Shown here piece by piece: positions 8,601 through 60,064 of a stretch of 64,000 nucleotides of DNA. The notes below the pieces were generated by a model. It searched no databases. It was not told where the DNA came from and was given only the letters and a program-made list of their open reading frames with translations. This DNA is from Chamaelirium japonicum (Eukaryota > Streptophyta > Magnoliopsida > Liliales > Melanthiaceae): NCBI GenBank assembly GCA_947650365.1, contig OX393550.1, forward strand, positions 70,739,978-70,803,977, given 5' to 3'. Both the position numbers and the translations under genes were made by a program. Position 1 is the stretch's first letter. Every line of letters starts with the position of its first letter.

Positions 8601-11600
8601 GATAATTGACTTTCTAGTTATTGAGGAAGTTTGGAAAACAGGTGTTTTTAGAAGGAAAGTTCTTAAATATTCAAAAATATAATACCTCTCGTGTTTCTAG
8701 TCACTCTGATGTTTATACATCTTGTTGGCAAAAAATACTTTGAATTAACTCTTTTATCCTTGTGTGCGATTTTTTATATGCCCGAAAACTTTATTCCATA
8801 GTGAAGCTGAGAAATCCTGATGTAGGCTCTAATAAGGGGCACTACAATCTTTAAGCCCTTAGGCTTTCCCTTTGGTCAACAACTAAGATTTGATTATCAA
8901 TATAGCGTCGTATAGCTCAAAAAGACAGCAAACAAAGGTTATTTCACTTAACTCTAAGGATCTATGCATTCAACATAAGCACGGATTAAGATCTAATAAG
9001 TAGAGATGCAATAATAGCACGAAAACAAAACTCAGCATATAATAATTTTAATCGCAGGAATGGAAAACAAAATTTAAAGAGAGGCATGCATCAGATTTTA
9101 AGATAAAATAGGGTTACGAGTGCCTGCTAGCATTACCGATAGACAAAAGATGGCAATTATGATAATTACACATATATTGGGCATCAACTAGAGATGAAAC
9201 GGAGGCGGATATGGCTGCGATGCGGAGCGTAGGCAATGAAAAGAGGTGAAAACGATACGGAAGCGGAGGAAAAGTGAAACAAAAGGATAGATAATGCTTG
9301 GGATTTCTGTTGTGGGTCGATGCGAGGATGCGTCGATGATCCCGCTCACGGAGCAAGGCCGGACATCGAGCGAAGCCGGATCCTTCGGAAGAACAAACCA
9401 AGGCCTATGCGAGACGAAGTTGCGGATCGTCTCGAGGCGAAGTCGAGGAAGCGGCGAAGGTCGGGGACACGCGTCTCTCCCGGAAGCTCTCACACGGAGG
9501 CAAAAATTTCAACCATGCAAAAGATCCGAAATTTCTTCTTTCTTTTTCCCTTTTGTAAAGCTAGGGTTTTCAAGAATCTTGTCGGTCGGTACCCCACAAA
9601 CACACACCCAGATTTTATTAATATAATATAAAAAACTCACCGAAAAGACCCGAATTCAATCCAAAAAGGCCTTGGATGAGATCATGGACACCTCCCATGA
9701 ATTGGGCAAGAACAAGACTAATAATAAGTGCAGAAAATAGGCCAAAAACATGAAAAATAAGTCAAAACCTGAAATAAACGACTGCAAGTCACCATATGGA
9801 TAATGTCCTCCATGCATAAAATAAAAACGACAAATAAAACTCTCTGGCATTAAACTGAAGATGCGGCGATGATATGATGGTGCTGATGCTGCATCAAATC
9901 CTTTTCTGATTCCTTTGGTTCTTTATTTTGTATATATAAACAAAAATATAGAACCATCCTTTTAAGAGAACCTAAAAATTGTTATGAAAACAATCTGAAA
10001 ATTGGTTCTGACACATCAATCGATAGCTACGTACTAGGTCATGGACTGACCCACTCAACATCGTAGGACAGAAAGAGATTGCACTCCAGAATTGTTGCAG
10101 GGGATTAATCCCTCTCAGAGGATTGATCCACCATAAGCAATCTAGCGATAGGTCAACTTTTTTATTCTATTGTCAGAGGACCAATCTATGTGGTCTCGCG
10201 GACCGATATGCTAGTGGCCTACCATGTGTTCAATCTGCATAGTTTAAAATCTCCTAAGAGAAGGGAAAAATGGTATTGACAAAAGTAATAGAAAAAGGAT
10301 AATGAATTCAAATCGAACTGAGTAGACATCTCCTTATTCAAAATTATCTAGAAGCTCATAGGCAAAGTCTCCTTTTACATTCCCACCATCCCTGCAAAGG
10401 CCAAAGTGAAGAATAATGACAACGCAGATGTTGCAACGAGCTTCCGACTGACAGATAAATCGGCCTTGTTAGATGCATGAGCCTGCTATCGTGTTGTGCA
10501 CAATTCTGAACGTAGAAGGATGGGACCCTTTCAAGGGTGTTTCTTACATGGGATAGACCCAAGGTACTAAAAATCGATATATTTTGTGAAATTTCACGAA
10601 ATATATCAATTAGTTGAAAGCTTGGCATGATATCCGGCATACAAAATTAAACGGCATAGAAACTGTTATGATTTTCCGATATTTCACAATATTTCCATGA
10701 AATATTTGTTTCTCCACAAAATATCGTGATATCAGTACTAACAAAAAGGGATTTTGTCAAAATTTCGCAAAAATTTTGGAAAATTTCGCGAAATGACACC
10801 GAAATTGTGGGACTGACTGGTTATAAAAGGGATCTTGTGGTCTGATTCTCAGCAACTTATTTACATATAATAACATTTACTTTAAGTTATTATATGTAAA
10901 TAACATTAAGCTATTATATTTACATATAATAACACTTTAAGTTATTATATGAAAATAAGCAAATACCCCCCCCCCCATTTGATTTCAATAAAAATATCAA
11001 AAAAATCAAAAACCAAAGGAATCAAAAAGTATACATTCAATTTTATTAAGAGAAAATAGCTTTCAGAGTTTTTTATAAAATCCACATGGTGAGAAAAGTG
11101 ATTAACTGAACTCTTTTTTAGCTCAAAAAAATCCATAAAATGTAGAAGTACAAGTGCATCTAGAAAACCATGGTCCGCCTTAGGAAAATTTGAATGAACA
11201 AAAACTTTCCCATATAAAAACTCTTTTTTCTAGACTTAATAGAAAAATAGTGTTTCACATCTCAGCATAATTTTTGCACAATTTCAAACTTACATAACTT
11301 ACTTGTTTTAAGTCCGCTTTCAAAATCATTTGAAACTAGGGCTGGCAATTTCGGACCAGACAGGGCAGACCCAACACGAAATTAGCGAGTTCGGGTCTGG
11401 GTTAAACAGGTTCGGGTCGTAAACGGGTCGACACGACTAACCTGTTTCGTAAACGGGTCGTGTCCGGGTTTTGTCTCCGACCCGTTTAATACCCGTTAAC
11501 ACCCGCTTAAAATCCAAAAGATCGGGTCGGGTCTGGTCTACCCAGCATTCGATCTGATGGGTTCAAGAGCTGTCAGCTGTGATCAGAACACCATGAGACT

Positions 11601-14600
11601 ATGAGAGAGACTGTGAGTGAGAGAGAGAGAGAGAGATGGTGGCTGGTGTGCAGGCTGTGCAACAGTGCAGGTGGCTAGCCGGAGCGTCGGATCGGGCGTC
11701 GAAGATCGAGGGATCGAGAGGAGGGTAGCCGGCCAGAGCGTCGAAGATCGGGCGAAGGGTGGCCGGCCGGAGCGTCGGAGATCGAGGATCGAGCGGAGGG
11801 TGGCCGACCGAAGCATCTGAGATCTGAGATCGGGCGAAGGGTGGCCGGCCGGAGACTCTCTCTCTCTCTCTCTCTCTCTCTCTCTCTCTCTCTTCCGGTC
11901 ATTGAATCGAACTCGGTGACGGGTCACCCCCAATACTTAAGCGGGTCTTACCGGGTCTACCCGTTTATAAACGGGTCGGGTACGAGTTTAGGGTTTAGAC
12001 ACGATTAGTTAAACAGGTCGTGTCCGGGTTTAGGGGTTTTGGAAACAACATGAGACCGAGCACGACCCGACCGGACACATTATTTTAACAATAAACTAAT
12101 CTTTATTTTGAAAATATTTTTATCCACAAAAAAGATTAAAAAATATTTGAAAAATATAGATCAAAACCGGATCAAACAAGATTGCACAAGACTCACAGAC
12201 TCAATACATTGAATACATACTAGGTGAAGCTCTACACCCCTAGATAGGGTACAAATATTATTTCAAAGAATGACTATCCAAAGTTTCACTAAAAAAACTC
12301 CATCAAAAAATCAATATTTCCACCATTTCTATAAAATTGTAAAAATTTCCACACTGCCGAAATATTTCCACGAAATATTTCCATATCCAGAATGTCAAAA
12401 TTTACACCGAAATTGAGATTTCGACCCTTGGATAGACTTTTATTTGGCTATTATAGAGCACAATTAGGCATGAAATCATGGGTCTTAGATGCATGCCTAT
12501 TCTAGCTCCGATGATACCAACTGTATTTTTATTTAATTTCTTTTATTTGTAGAATTGCATTATTCCCTATTTTCATGTATTCGGACTCTAGTTCGTTGTC
12601 GTTTGATTGCCTATATTGTGGGGGGTGTCCATAGTCGTGTTCGGGTGGCTTTCAATTGAATCCGTGGTAACCCATATGTGTGACCAGCTTTATAGTTAAA
12701 AATAAAGGGCTAACAAGGCCTGCAAGGCTCTAACGATCAAGATTATACTTGATCTAATGGTCGGATGGGCATGACATAAGCTAGTGATTACATGCCAAGT
12801 CATTGGTCCTCCTTTACTAGGGTTTGAAGATATCCAAAGCCCATTTGTAAGTACAAACCACCCTTCACATGCCATCACCTCTCTCTCTTTTGCGTCGTAC
12901 CACCCTAGGGAACCCTCCTCGCTCCACGCCACATGGATCCCACAAAGTGGTTTGTTATCCCATTGAGATCCGGTCTTGTCCTTTTTTTGCCTCTTTTCCT
13001 CTCCCTTAATTCCTTGTTTGCACGTTGCACCTCCATCTGATCCCTTCTTTGCTTGGTACCTATGAGTATCCACTGTTGATTTGCATGCCCTAGATCTTGG
13101 AAAAGAGAAGAAGGAAAAAAGAATTCAAATTTAAATTATTTTGAGAGACAACTCTTTGGGAGAGACTCGTGCCAACATTTACACCCTCCTTCATCACTCG
13201 ATCGAGTGATGGTGCCTTTGTAAACTGTAAAGTGACTTTGAAGGATCCGACATATCTAAACGAACGACCTTGCTCGGTAAGAGGATCTCAAGGGGATCAC
13301 AATTGACGATAGTAGGTGACACTCTCCCACGGATCAATCAAGATCCATTGATTGGATCTTGATTGATGATAGTAGGAGACACTCTTCCATGGTTTGAATC
13401 CTAGTTTTCAACTCTCGAGCAATCCGTGGTGTACCGTGTTCTCCCGTGTTTGGTTCCATATATCCCAAGGTAAAATTTCTTAATTCCTTGTTTGGATTCC
13501 TTGAGTTACCTGGAATTATAATCAGATTTCATTGCCTTTTCTTCTTCGATTTGTTTGGGATCCTGGACCTAGGGTTTGATTTAATTTTCCCGAGGCTTAT
13601 GTCTTGTTACACTGGTAACATAGGCCCAAAGAAATCCGCCCATACATCGCTGGGCAGAAAGATAAGGATAGTAAGTGCAAAAAGGGAACTCTTGGCATAC
13701 CTATCAATCAGATCCATCCTTTTCCATTCCCAGAGAGGAGTCATTTGGCAACAAGTCGAAGATAGTCAAGTCAAGAAAGCTGGCTTTCATCTACTTGCAG
13801 CAAATTCCAAAAGTGGATGGACATGATTGCAAATCTCCAAGAAGAACGAGGAAGGGAAAAGCCCAATGAGGGAATAACACAACCAATAGAAAGCAAGTGT
13901 GACTTTCCACGTGCATCTATGACGATTTCTTTTCAAGGCTATACCTTCACCACTTCTTATTTGTCTTATTTTATTATCATCTTTACCTCCACTGATTCGT
14001 ATCATATCCATTGCTATCATGCAACCATGTCTTCCGTCCTAATTAGCATCTGCACCCAAAGCCTCTAGGAACCAATACCACACCACATCTCGCAACCGCC
14101 AATATCACACCACATCTCGGAACCGCCAATATCCTTTTACTTTCCCTCCTATACTGATGTCCTAACCAACCATCGACATTATTGAACCCAGAAACTGGCC
14201 AAATTACCGTTTGACGGTTTTCTGATCGTTGGATACATCTACTGCCCTGTTTTGACAAATTTTATTATTTAAAAATCTTGCTAATACAATAATTCACATA
14301 CAAAAATGGCTATTATATGTAGAATTTTTAGTTCTGTGGTAGTTTAAGGATTTAATTGTTACATTTTGACCTATGCTTGCCATTGTTTATATATCTGTGT
14401 TAGATCGGCGATAAACTAGCTATGTTTGCTCTCTTTGTTGATGTTATATGCGCTATATTGGAAACTAAAGCTTAATTAGCTGACTAGAAGGGTGTGTAGT
14501 GGACCCATTTAGGTGCCTAACTCAATTGGTATCAGAGCTTGAAAGGTCATGTTCGTCGTAACCATGTTCTATCATTCTATTTCATCTTCTCTACACCTAT

Positions 14601-59882: not shown

Positions 59883-60064
59883 CAGTGTTTTAAATATTGA
59901 CGATATATAGTGACATATCGCCGATATATTGCTATATCGCCAGGCTCCGACACCAATCCAAGTTAAATTCCCCTGTTTTGGGGAAAAAGTCGACATATCG
60001 CTAATATATCGCTAATATCGTTATTTATCGCCAATTTATAACACAATATCGCCGATATATCGCC
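59883..60064. mobile_element. hAT-type element fragment with ATATCGCC word repeats
   Basis: The left end CAGTGTTTTAAATATTGACG is of the same type as the MITE at 38977. It is followed by dense ATATCGCCGATATAT, CATATCGCTAATATATCGC and TATCGCCAAT words on both sides of a unique stretch (59940-59990). No right-hand inverted end or target duplication was found, so the copy is probably truncated. Confidence 0.6.

Follow-up and report, generated by a model that had tools for sequence, protein, structure and literature searches.

How does a transposase distinguish its own copies among hundreds of look-alikes, and how do transposon families split? These questions are raised by a 64,000-bp stretch of Chamaelirium japonicum DNA (G000:C2:70739978-70803977; hereafter, the window), which holds a series of hAT-type elements, here called E1 to E11, most of them with similar tips followed by short repeated words. 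We suggest that the window elements are very probably members of many plant hAT families that share tips, while the private words of each would be sites specific for its transposase. A sequence-only reading of the window had named at least nine hAT-like elements, and raw sequence, duplication and end scans confirmed elements at all places named. Copies were sought in the window's own assembly (1,518,659,071 bases, 3253 contigs); each DNA search scored the best 40 candidates and each protein or family search the best 150, and all copy counts are therefore lower bounds.

Short terminal inverted repeats of the CA.nG/TAGGG kind characterize these elements, except for the other ends in E2 and E7. 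A CAnnGTT-like tip is present in seven families, namely E1 (loosely, CAAGGTACTAAAAA), E3, E4/E5, E6, E8, E9 and E10. Six families are miniature inverted-repeat transposable elements (MITEs), i.e. they are short, non-coding and of high copy number and have fixed edges. These are E2 (24369..24982; end CTATGC.., word CGACTAGTCCC, duplication CGTACGGG / TGTACGGG, 7/8 positions), E4/E5, E6 (30413..30940; CAAGGTTTTAAATGTTG / CTTGGAATCAAATGTTG, word TTTTCGGTC, perfect duplication ACCTCATC), E7 (31050..31722, or 31051-31723 by genome alignments; different end type CTAAGAGGCAC / TAGGAAGCAC, words GTGTCCG and GACACGGGTACG, duplication GGGCATCA, 8/8), E8 (31750..32005; CAGGGTTTGAAATC / CAAGATTCAAATC, word ACCGGTAC, duplication CTTGCAAC / CCTACAAC, 6/8) and E9 (38977..39415, plus strand; CAGTGTTCTAAAAAGCGG / CAAGGTTCTAAAAAACG, word GCCTAGGCG, perfect duplication ATTGTTGC). 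In the E4/E5 family, E5 (32283..32619, plus strand; CATAGTTACCAAG / CTCTGTTACCAA, word AGTCGGGAA) has the perfect duplication GGTTTAGT, and E4 (25382..25708, minus strand; duplication CGAACAAC / CGGACAAC, 7/8) sits in the left part of a coding hAT element. The remaining three families are E1, E3 and E10. E1 (10560..12430; tips CAAGGTACTAAAAA / CAAGGGTCGAAATC, word ~AAATTTCG / TTTCrCGAAA at both ends) is 1871 bp long and contains a nested hAT-type element, E11 (11338..12090, right edge approximate; end TAGGGCTGGCAA, word ACGGGTCG / CGTGTC); an end scan placed the right end of E1 at 12430 based on the duplication GATAGACC / GATAGACT (7/8) and E1's own words. E3 (25223..25381, plus strand; end CATGGTTTTAAAACCCGCGGG, word ACCCG / GACTCG) is the left terminus of the coding hAT, and E10 (59883..60324, plus strand; end CAGTGTTTTAAATATTG, word ATATCGCC) is the left part of a longer hAT-type element that is cut by an L1. 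E1, E2, E6, E7, E8 and E11 are given without a strand. The sequence-only reading had missed the coding hAT, the nested E11 at 11338, E1's right end, the L1 that cuts E10 and the TAGGGNTG series described below. Right ends of E3 and E10 were sought within the window and not found.

As had been proposed, most elements have the 8-bp target duplication of hAT transposons, which is seen in the copies of E9 and, as scored above, in E1, E2 and E4-E9 of the window; for E11, a duplication was not established. An unbiased search for inverted ends flanked by perfect 8-bp duplications gave two pairs at up to 2 end mismatches vs 0.05 expected from shuffles, namely E9 (38977-39415) and an unrelated pair at 19483-19634; at up to 3 end mismatches, there were nine pairs, E5 among them, vs 4.2 expected.

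Failure of the ends and duplications to recur had been set in advance as one outcome that would speak against the proposal; eight of the nine families recur in the genome, six at both predicted edges and E1 and E10 at the left edge only. The copy searches with the six MITE families gave 1564-2752 first-look candidates each, of which the best 40 were scored, and the edge-test queries for E5, E6, E8, E2 and E7 carried ~60 bp of flank. E5 matches start at query position 58-62 (expected 61) in 37/39 other rows and end at 395-399 (expected 397) in 36/39, and E4, of the same family, appears among them. Similarly, matches start at 58-62 in 36/41 rows and end at 585-590 in 38/41 for E6, start at 54-59 in 31/41 and end at 299-322 in 30/41 for E8, start at 62-63 in 37/37 left-part rows and end at 671-681 in 37/39 main rows for E2, and start at 57-63 in 36/39 main rows and end at 732-736 in 11/11 full-length rows for E7. 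E1 matches start at 60-62 in 23/39 main rows, at 171-251 in 14 and slightly outside in 2, and the similarity to other copies continues beyond 11300. For E10, the start is at 58-64 in 16/39 rows, at 85-111, inside the word array, in 21 and slightly outside in 2, and 38/39 rows come within 2 bases of the query end; thus, sequence common to other copies extends to at least 60324, after which the window copy is interrupted by the L1. For E9, 30 copies of the 40 scored were fetched, the window copy included. With an end shift of up to 2 bases allowed, 27 have perfect duplications and 3 have one mismatch; with strict ends, 25/30 are perfect, 3 have one mismatch and 2 are without, and cross-paired flanks matched with at most one mismatch in 0/870 cases. 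In addition, 37/39 other E2 copies align as two pieces around window position 24522-24523; the three copies checked (C6:58037883, C1:29439423 and C8:62191815) exceed the window copy by 79-80 bp in length, their right pieces being ~95% identical to it.

The words behind these tips are degenerate: as first written, the exact words occur 1-6 times in their own elements. When 8-mers were counted with one mismatch on both strands and compared with 60 dinucleotide shuffles, using provisional element edges, the best 8-mer exceeded all 60 shuffles in 8/10 elements (E1, E2, E4, E5, E7, E8, E9 and E10) and did not in E3 (5/60) and E6 (4/60). The best 8-mers of E4 and E5 are CGATTTTT and GACTTTTT, respectively, not GTCGGGAA as first written, and the best 8-mer of E11 exceeds its shuffles owing to a GA repeat. 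Thus, the notion of repeated private words holds in a degenerate form and for most elements. A repeated subterminal motif, as in other hAT elements, was also detected in the termini, of which 30 were analyzed, 16 from the window and 14 from relatives that encode the hAT C-terminal domain (hATC), with arrays beginning at most 3 bases off the true tip in this and the palindrome and phasing analyses. Word repetition reaches p<=0.05 against 100 shuffles in 23/30 termini and in 10/16 of those in the window; 5/40 ordinary 200-mers of the window reach this level against 60 shuffles. In the consensus of the 30 E9 copies, CTAGGCG or its complement has 13 matches, which partly overlap and are confined to the first 140 and the last 65 bp. 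Among the window elements, the word profiles are mostly distinct (cosine 0.04-0.52), the exception being E4/E5 (0.82). By contrast, the suggestion that several words are palindromic was not borne out: within bp 9-60, inverted repeats rise above the shuffled level in just 2/30 termini, and palindromy was rejected as a hallmark of the words.

We read the words as family-specific transposase sites because hAT proteins studied elsewhere, as described in the portions covered of the papers cited here, bind motifs of this kind. The Hermes transpososome engages short subterminal repeats through BED fingers from several protomers, and the exact phasing of these repeats is called crucial (PMC10368747). 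The transposase of maize Ac binds repeated AAACGG hexamers cooperatively (PMC3260210). Herves transposase binds CGATTCAT repeats, and the Tag1 motifs TGACCC and AAACCC are bound by transposase; the hAT transposase-bound regions vary in sequence, which according to the authors ensures specificity, and Tag1, Ac and Tol2 have unequal left and right motifs (PMC3143072). Finally, each of the CGG-binding hAT proteins (hAT-19 and others) prefers its own 8-mers, which usually contain CGG or CGC, and for all four hAT-encoded CGG-binding proteins, the motif corresponds to subterminal sequence of the protein's own element (PMC8097297). All nine words of the sequence-only reading contain CG, which fits the CGG/CGC preference of hAT-derived proteins. 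We consider it likely that the words form arrays of putative binding sites for family-specific transposases. The CG content could also be taken to mean that the words are mainly CpG-rich targets of host silencing, or hidden promoters, instead of transposase sites. CpG observed/expected is indeed 1.24-2.48 in 8/11 elements vs 0.65 in the remaining window (provisional edges). However, E2 (0.63) and E9 (0.70) are not CpG-rich, and the CpGs of E9 are conserved like its other C/G positions (0.920 vs 0.919), on which basis CpG decay in E9 was rejected. This alternative is very improbable, and a role in silencing could exist alongside binding without taking its place.

If the words are transposase sites, their spacing would be of interest. 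For the termini of 22 families, each given the same weight, we analyzed the spacing of identical 5-mers. Among 161 periods between 4 and 20 bp, the strongest is 5.3 bp (t 4.26, positive in 18/22 families), with t 0.36 and -0.44 at the neighboring periods of 5.0 and 5.5 bp, respectively. Dinucleotide shuffles attain the maximum in 1/200 runs, and none of 200 sets of 22 ordinary genomic segments attains the 5.3-bp value. The phasing is kept with 4-, 5- and 6-mers and with any one family dropped (lowest t 3.50). This analysis was devised after inspection of the data, and there is some dependence among families that have the same end type; the main guard is the split by end type, in which the CA group (10 families, including E2 despite its different tip) and the TAGGG group (11 families, see below) each peak at 5.3 bp (t 3.12 and 3.53, respectively; E7 is in neither group). 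The phasing is confined to repeats in the same orientation (t 4.25), inverted word pairs giving t 0.32. E3, E5, L037 and L058 (L numbers denote loci of the assembly) have no 5.3-bp phasing, and 19 further pattern-matched ends in fetched loci give t -0.16, although the word filter retains only 2/19, a number too small for a judgment. At the full-turn period of 10.5 bp, the signal is weaker (t 2.36, positive in 14/22 families, reached by 3% of the genomic control sets). The B-DNA helix makes one turn in 10.5 bp, 5.3 bp is half of it, and word copies would therefore lie on the same or the opposite face of the helix. Such an arrangement suggests a multimeric transposase with several fingers that read one or two faces of the helix.

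Could the words and their steps of 5 and 10-11 bp simply be by-products of local slippage or tandem duplication with no role in binding? Some arrays are near-perfect tandems (E7 with spacings of 11, 11 and 11; GGGTCGGGTCGGG runs), and copies of E9 are most variable in the repeated stretch at consensus 121-180, as slippage would have it. However, the E9 consensus has its word at both ends and on both strands, and 37 other windows with a matched direct-repeat load have no 5.3-bp period (t -0.26), even though at least one of them, in L002, retains the tail of an E9 copy. Moreover, comparable motifs in known hAT elements bind transposase (PMC3143072, PMC3260210, in the parts covered). Altogether, we regard slippage as an unlikely source of the words.

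The TAGGGNTG-type ends of the TAGGG group provide a second instance of the same arrangement. A search of the assembly with Dimer_Tnp_hAT (hATC) scored the best 150 of 1885 candidates; 30 hATC loci, each with 1.5 kb on either side, were used for this end type, and the patterns selecting TAGGG-type ends were composed after inspection of these sequences. Downstream of hATC, 20/30 loci have a right end of the TAGGGNTG type, which in one family reads TAGGCCTG; these 20 loci form ten families at hATC identity >=85%, and the ten loci with no such end within reach were left uncounted. Nine families have the words CGGGTCGGG, CGGTGCGGT, TCGGGCC, GTGTCGTGTC, GGTTCGGGTTGG, GGGCTTGGGCC, GGTTCGGTTCGG, CGGTTCGAAACCGACC and GGGCGGGTTG directly behind the end, and the tenth, L058, has a weak word. 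Because ten hATC families with this end have different words, one end with many words holds for the second end type too. Words are more alike within families (cosine 0.95, 15 pairs) than between them (0.29, 45 pairs), and two pairs of families, L040/L045 (0.63) and L034/L042 (0.68), have similar words. L031 and L032 have 71% hATC identity and the common tip TAGGGATGGCAACGG, yet a word cosine of 0.13; as a consequence, the tip looks like the slow part of the end and the word like the fast part, as far as sequence comparison goes.

This bears on the scenario in which one or a few transposases move all CAnnGTT families via the shared end alone, the words being neutral family markers. Tips are common to several families, and Ds1 is mobile with Ac despite having few or no hexamers (PMC3260210, part covered), in line with such a scenario. 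By contrast, several hATC-bearing families of the same end type have differing words, and subterminal repeats are bound by the Ac, Tol2, Tag1 and Herves transposases in the literature portions cited above. We find this scenario improbable, even more so than slippage. Of other loci, L062 has a third end type at 2144-6847, where an element of 4704 bp carries hATC, has the ends CAGGGCCG and is flanked by the perfect duplication CCCTTGGA. Reading by eye gave, at L070 2133-2626, a small TAGGGGTGGCAA element that has CGGGTT words and whose duplication, TCGCTAGG, is perfect.

Do elements that share a word also share a transposase? E3 was rejected as a candidate MITE because a decayed coding hAT, with BED, DUF659 and hATC at 26.4-28.65 kb, has E3 as its left end. 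On the plus strand, this gene has a BED-finger exon at 26395..26844 (zf-BED, E 6.1e-7), a DUF659 core at 26807..27603 that spans two frames with an overlap (E 6.1e-11 and 3.4e-41) and a Dimer_Tnp_hAT (hATC) C-terminal stretch at 28353..28646 (E 1.4e-4). It is collinear with the hAT of L065, and the BED-finger query from L065 matched the window at 26479-26688. Ten 10-kb stretches from 90 selected hATC places were examined, a chance sample and mostly low-scoring. L065 has a 3900-bp hAT (L065 3361-7260) with a perfect CTTCATTT duplication, and L064 an 3881-bp hAT with GTGTTTAC present twice; both elements have the tip CAGTGTTTTAAAA, with CGGGTCGACCCG-like words after it at one end and GACTCG words at the other. 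The left word of L065, ACCCG, is one base apart from its right word, ACTCG, within the same element. L063 (4587 bp, duplication CTTTCATC), of which L068 is a relative, has CAATGGTTTCAAAA and ACCGG words. In L066, the right tip is CAAGGTTGTCAAATC and the words are GTATCG; a left end was looked for and not found. The word profile of E3 is nearest to that of L065 (cosine 0.61, next 0.34), and that of E11 to hATC-bearing L037 of the L037/L039 family (0.61, next 0.45). Thus, the predicted sharing of words was seen with hATC-bearing hATs for E3 and E11; a transposase with BED, core and hATC is found for E3 itself and, for E11, only via the hATC near the matching end in L037. Both BED finger and word were compared for three families: the window and L065 fingers are 58% identical at a word cosine of 0.61, and the L063 finger is ~40% identical to both (41-42 residues), with a cosine of 0.33 to the window word. 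Many BED-finger matches have the same bit score of 52.8, many of them with an open frame of 597 amino acids; this group is a high-copy BED-bearing family and probably a young one. When coordinates of E10 copies and BED matches were compared by eye, one pair in 39 lay within 8 kb. Beside E3 and E4, near-identical octamers lie at 25215-25222 (CTGACAAC), 25374-25381 (CGAACAAC) and 25709-25716 (CGGACAAC); E4 may have inserted at an E3-target-like site, or this may be where E3 and E4 formerly ended side by side.

Several observations weigh against our interpretation. The sharing of one end is incomplete in that E2 (CTATGC..) and E7 (CTAAGAGGCAC..) lack the CAnnGTT tip. Seven of the 30 termini (E2R, E3L, E5L, E5R, E6L, E6R and L058R) have no significant word. 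E1, E2 and E5-E10 have no clear partner among the 12 hATC-bearing families compared (cosine <=0.55), and because unrelated word profiles reach 0.55, the matches at 0.61 have a modest margin. In the ten TAGGG-type families, only right ends were covered, ~0.7-1.1 kb behind hATC, and their tie to the gene is one of position; L038, which shares the hATC of L037, has no TAGGGNTG-type end within reach. The sameness of words within families is partly trivial, the copies being mostly young, and the idea that word similarity tracks hATC identity was rejected for the ten families (Spearman 0.03, Mantel p 0.42). Finally, binding of the words is inferred from the hAT proteins named above.

With these points in mind, our main reading, which we hold to be very probable, is that the outermost ~10-14 bp (CAnnGTTYTAAAA-like or TAGGGNTGGCAA-like) would be the end for cleavage and synapsis, common to groups of families, and the next ~50-200 bp a family-private array of short words, the putative subterminal sites for the family's own transposase, which may read them by its N-terminal BED zinc finger. 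Each transposase would thereby gather only its own copies and MITEs, and changes in the word would split families. Beyond this, we tentatively propose a two-part code, which we hold to be somewhat less probable than its negation. In this model, the tip would be the slowly changing catalytic part and the word the fast-changing part, set in half-turn direct repeats for an array of BED fingers on one multimeric transposase; joint change of word and finger under a constant tip would yield mutually deaf families with their MITEs in one genome. In this genome, ten hATC-bearing hAT families have one end type and several have another, with readable words, and the matching of fingers to words is thus testable in a single organism. 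If half-turn phasing is true elsewhere, it would allow real binding arrays to be recognized from sequence and place a structural constraint on plant hAT complexes.

Overall, the arrangement is similar to that of known hAT elements, as described in the portions of the papers covered. As in Hermes, where exact phasing is called crucial, short repeats lie inside the end (PMC10368747); however, Hermes has AAGT sites, the first two together making up a quasi-palindrome, while here direct words lie at multiples of 5.3 bp in many families. Ac/Ds has the 8-bp duplication, short terminal repeats and subterminal hexamers as well as small relatives that share only the ends plus a few hexamers (PMC3260210), whereas many non-AAACGG words lie behind one end type in one genome here. 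A short repeated subterminal motif that differs between hAT elements is also found in Herves and Tag1, and unequal left and right motifs as in L065 (ACCCG vs ACTCG) are found in Tag1, Ac and Tol2 (PMC3143072); Herves and Tag1 have other words, and the tips described here are CAnnGTTYTAAAA-like or TAGGGNTGGCAA-like and known from sequence alone. The CGG-binding hAT proteins are from animals and fungi, with no plant family in the portion covered (PMC8097297), and in the portion covered of a paper on two Brassica hAT MITE families, the word "subterminal" is absent (PMC7385995). In literature searches mostly outside subscription papers, we found neither one end type with many words in one plant genome nor half-turn phasing across hAT families described, and searches by end sequences returned unrelated papers only. 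Thus, the statement that this is not a described classification holds narrowly: the general principle that hAT transposases bind differing motifs is already in print, sequence differences between hAT-bound regions being reported in the covered part of PMC3143072, while the elements themselves are new.

Other features of the window are unrelated to the words. The pair at 19483-19634 spans 152 bp with near-perfect inverted ends CCTCACCAATCTTCATCAAATT / CCTCACAAATTTTCATCAAATT and the perfect duplication ATGATCAT and is probably another small transposon. A C run and a G run at 10966-10976 and 33073-33091 are possibly assembly or slippage features. An L1-like long interspersed nuclear element lies at 53801-59572 on the minus strand, with a frame of 1014 amino acids for endonuclease and reverse transcriptase (54481-57525) followed by zf-RVT, and a frame at 57479-59572 with DUF4283 and a sub-threshold zinc knuckle (Pfam). 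The second L1-like insertion, within E10 on the plus strand, starts between 60325 and 60499 and ends at ~63844 with an A-run at 63834-63844. Its 659-residue endonuclease / reverse transcriptase frame at 60500-62479 is of the L1 type, and the possibility that E10 carries a hAT gene was rejected on this basis.

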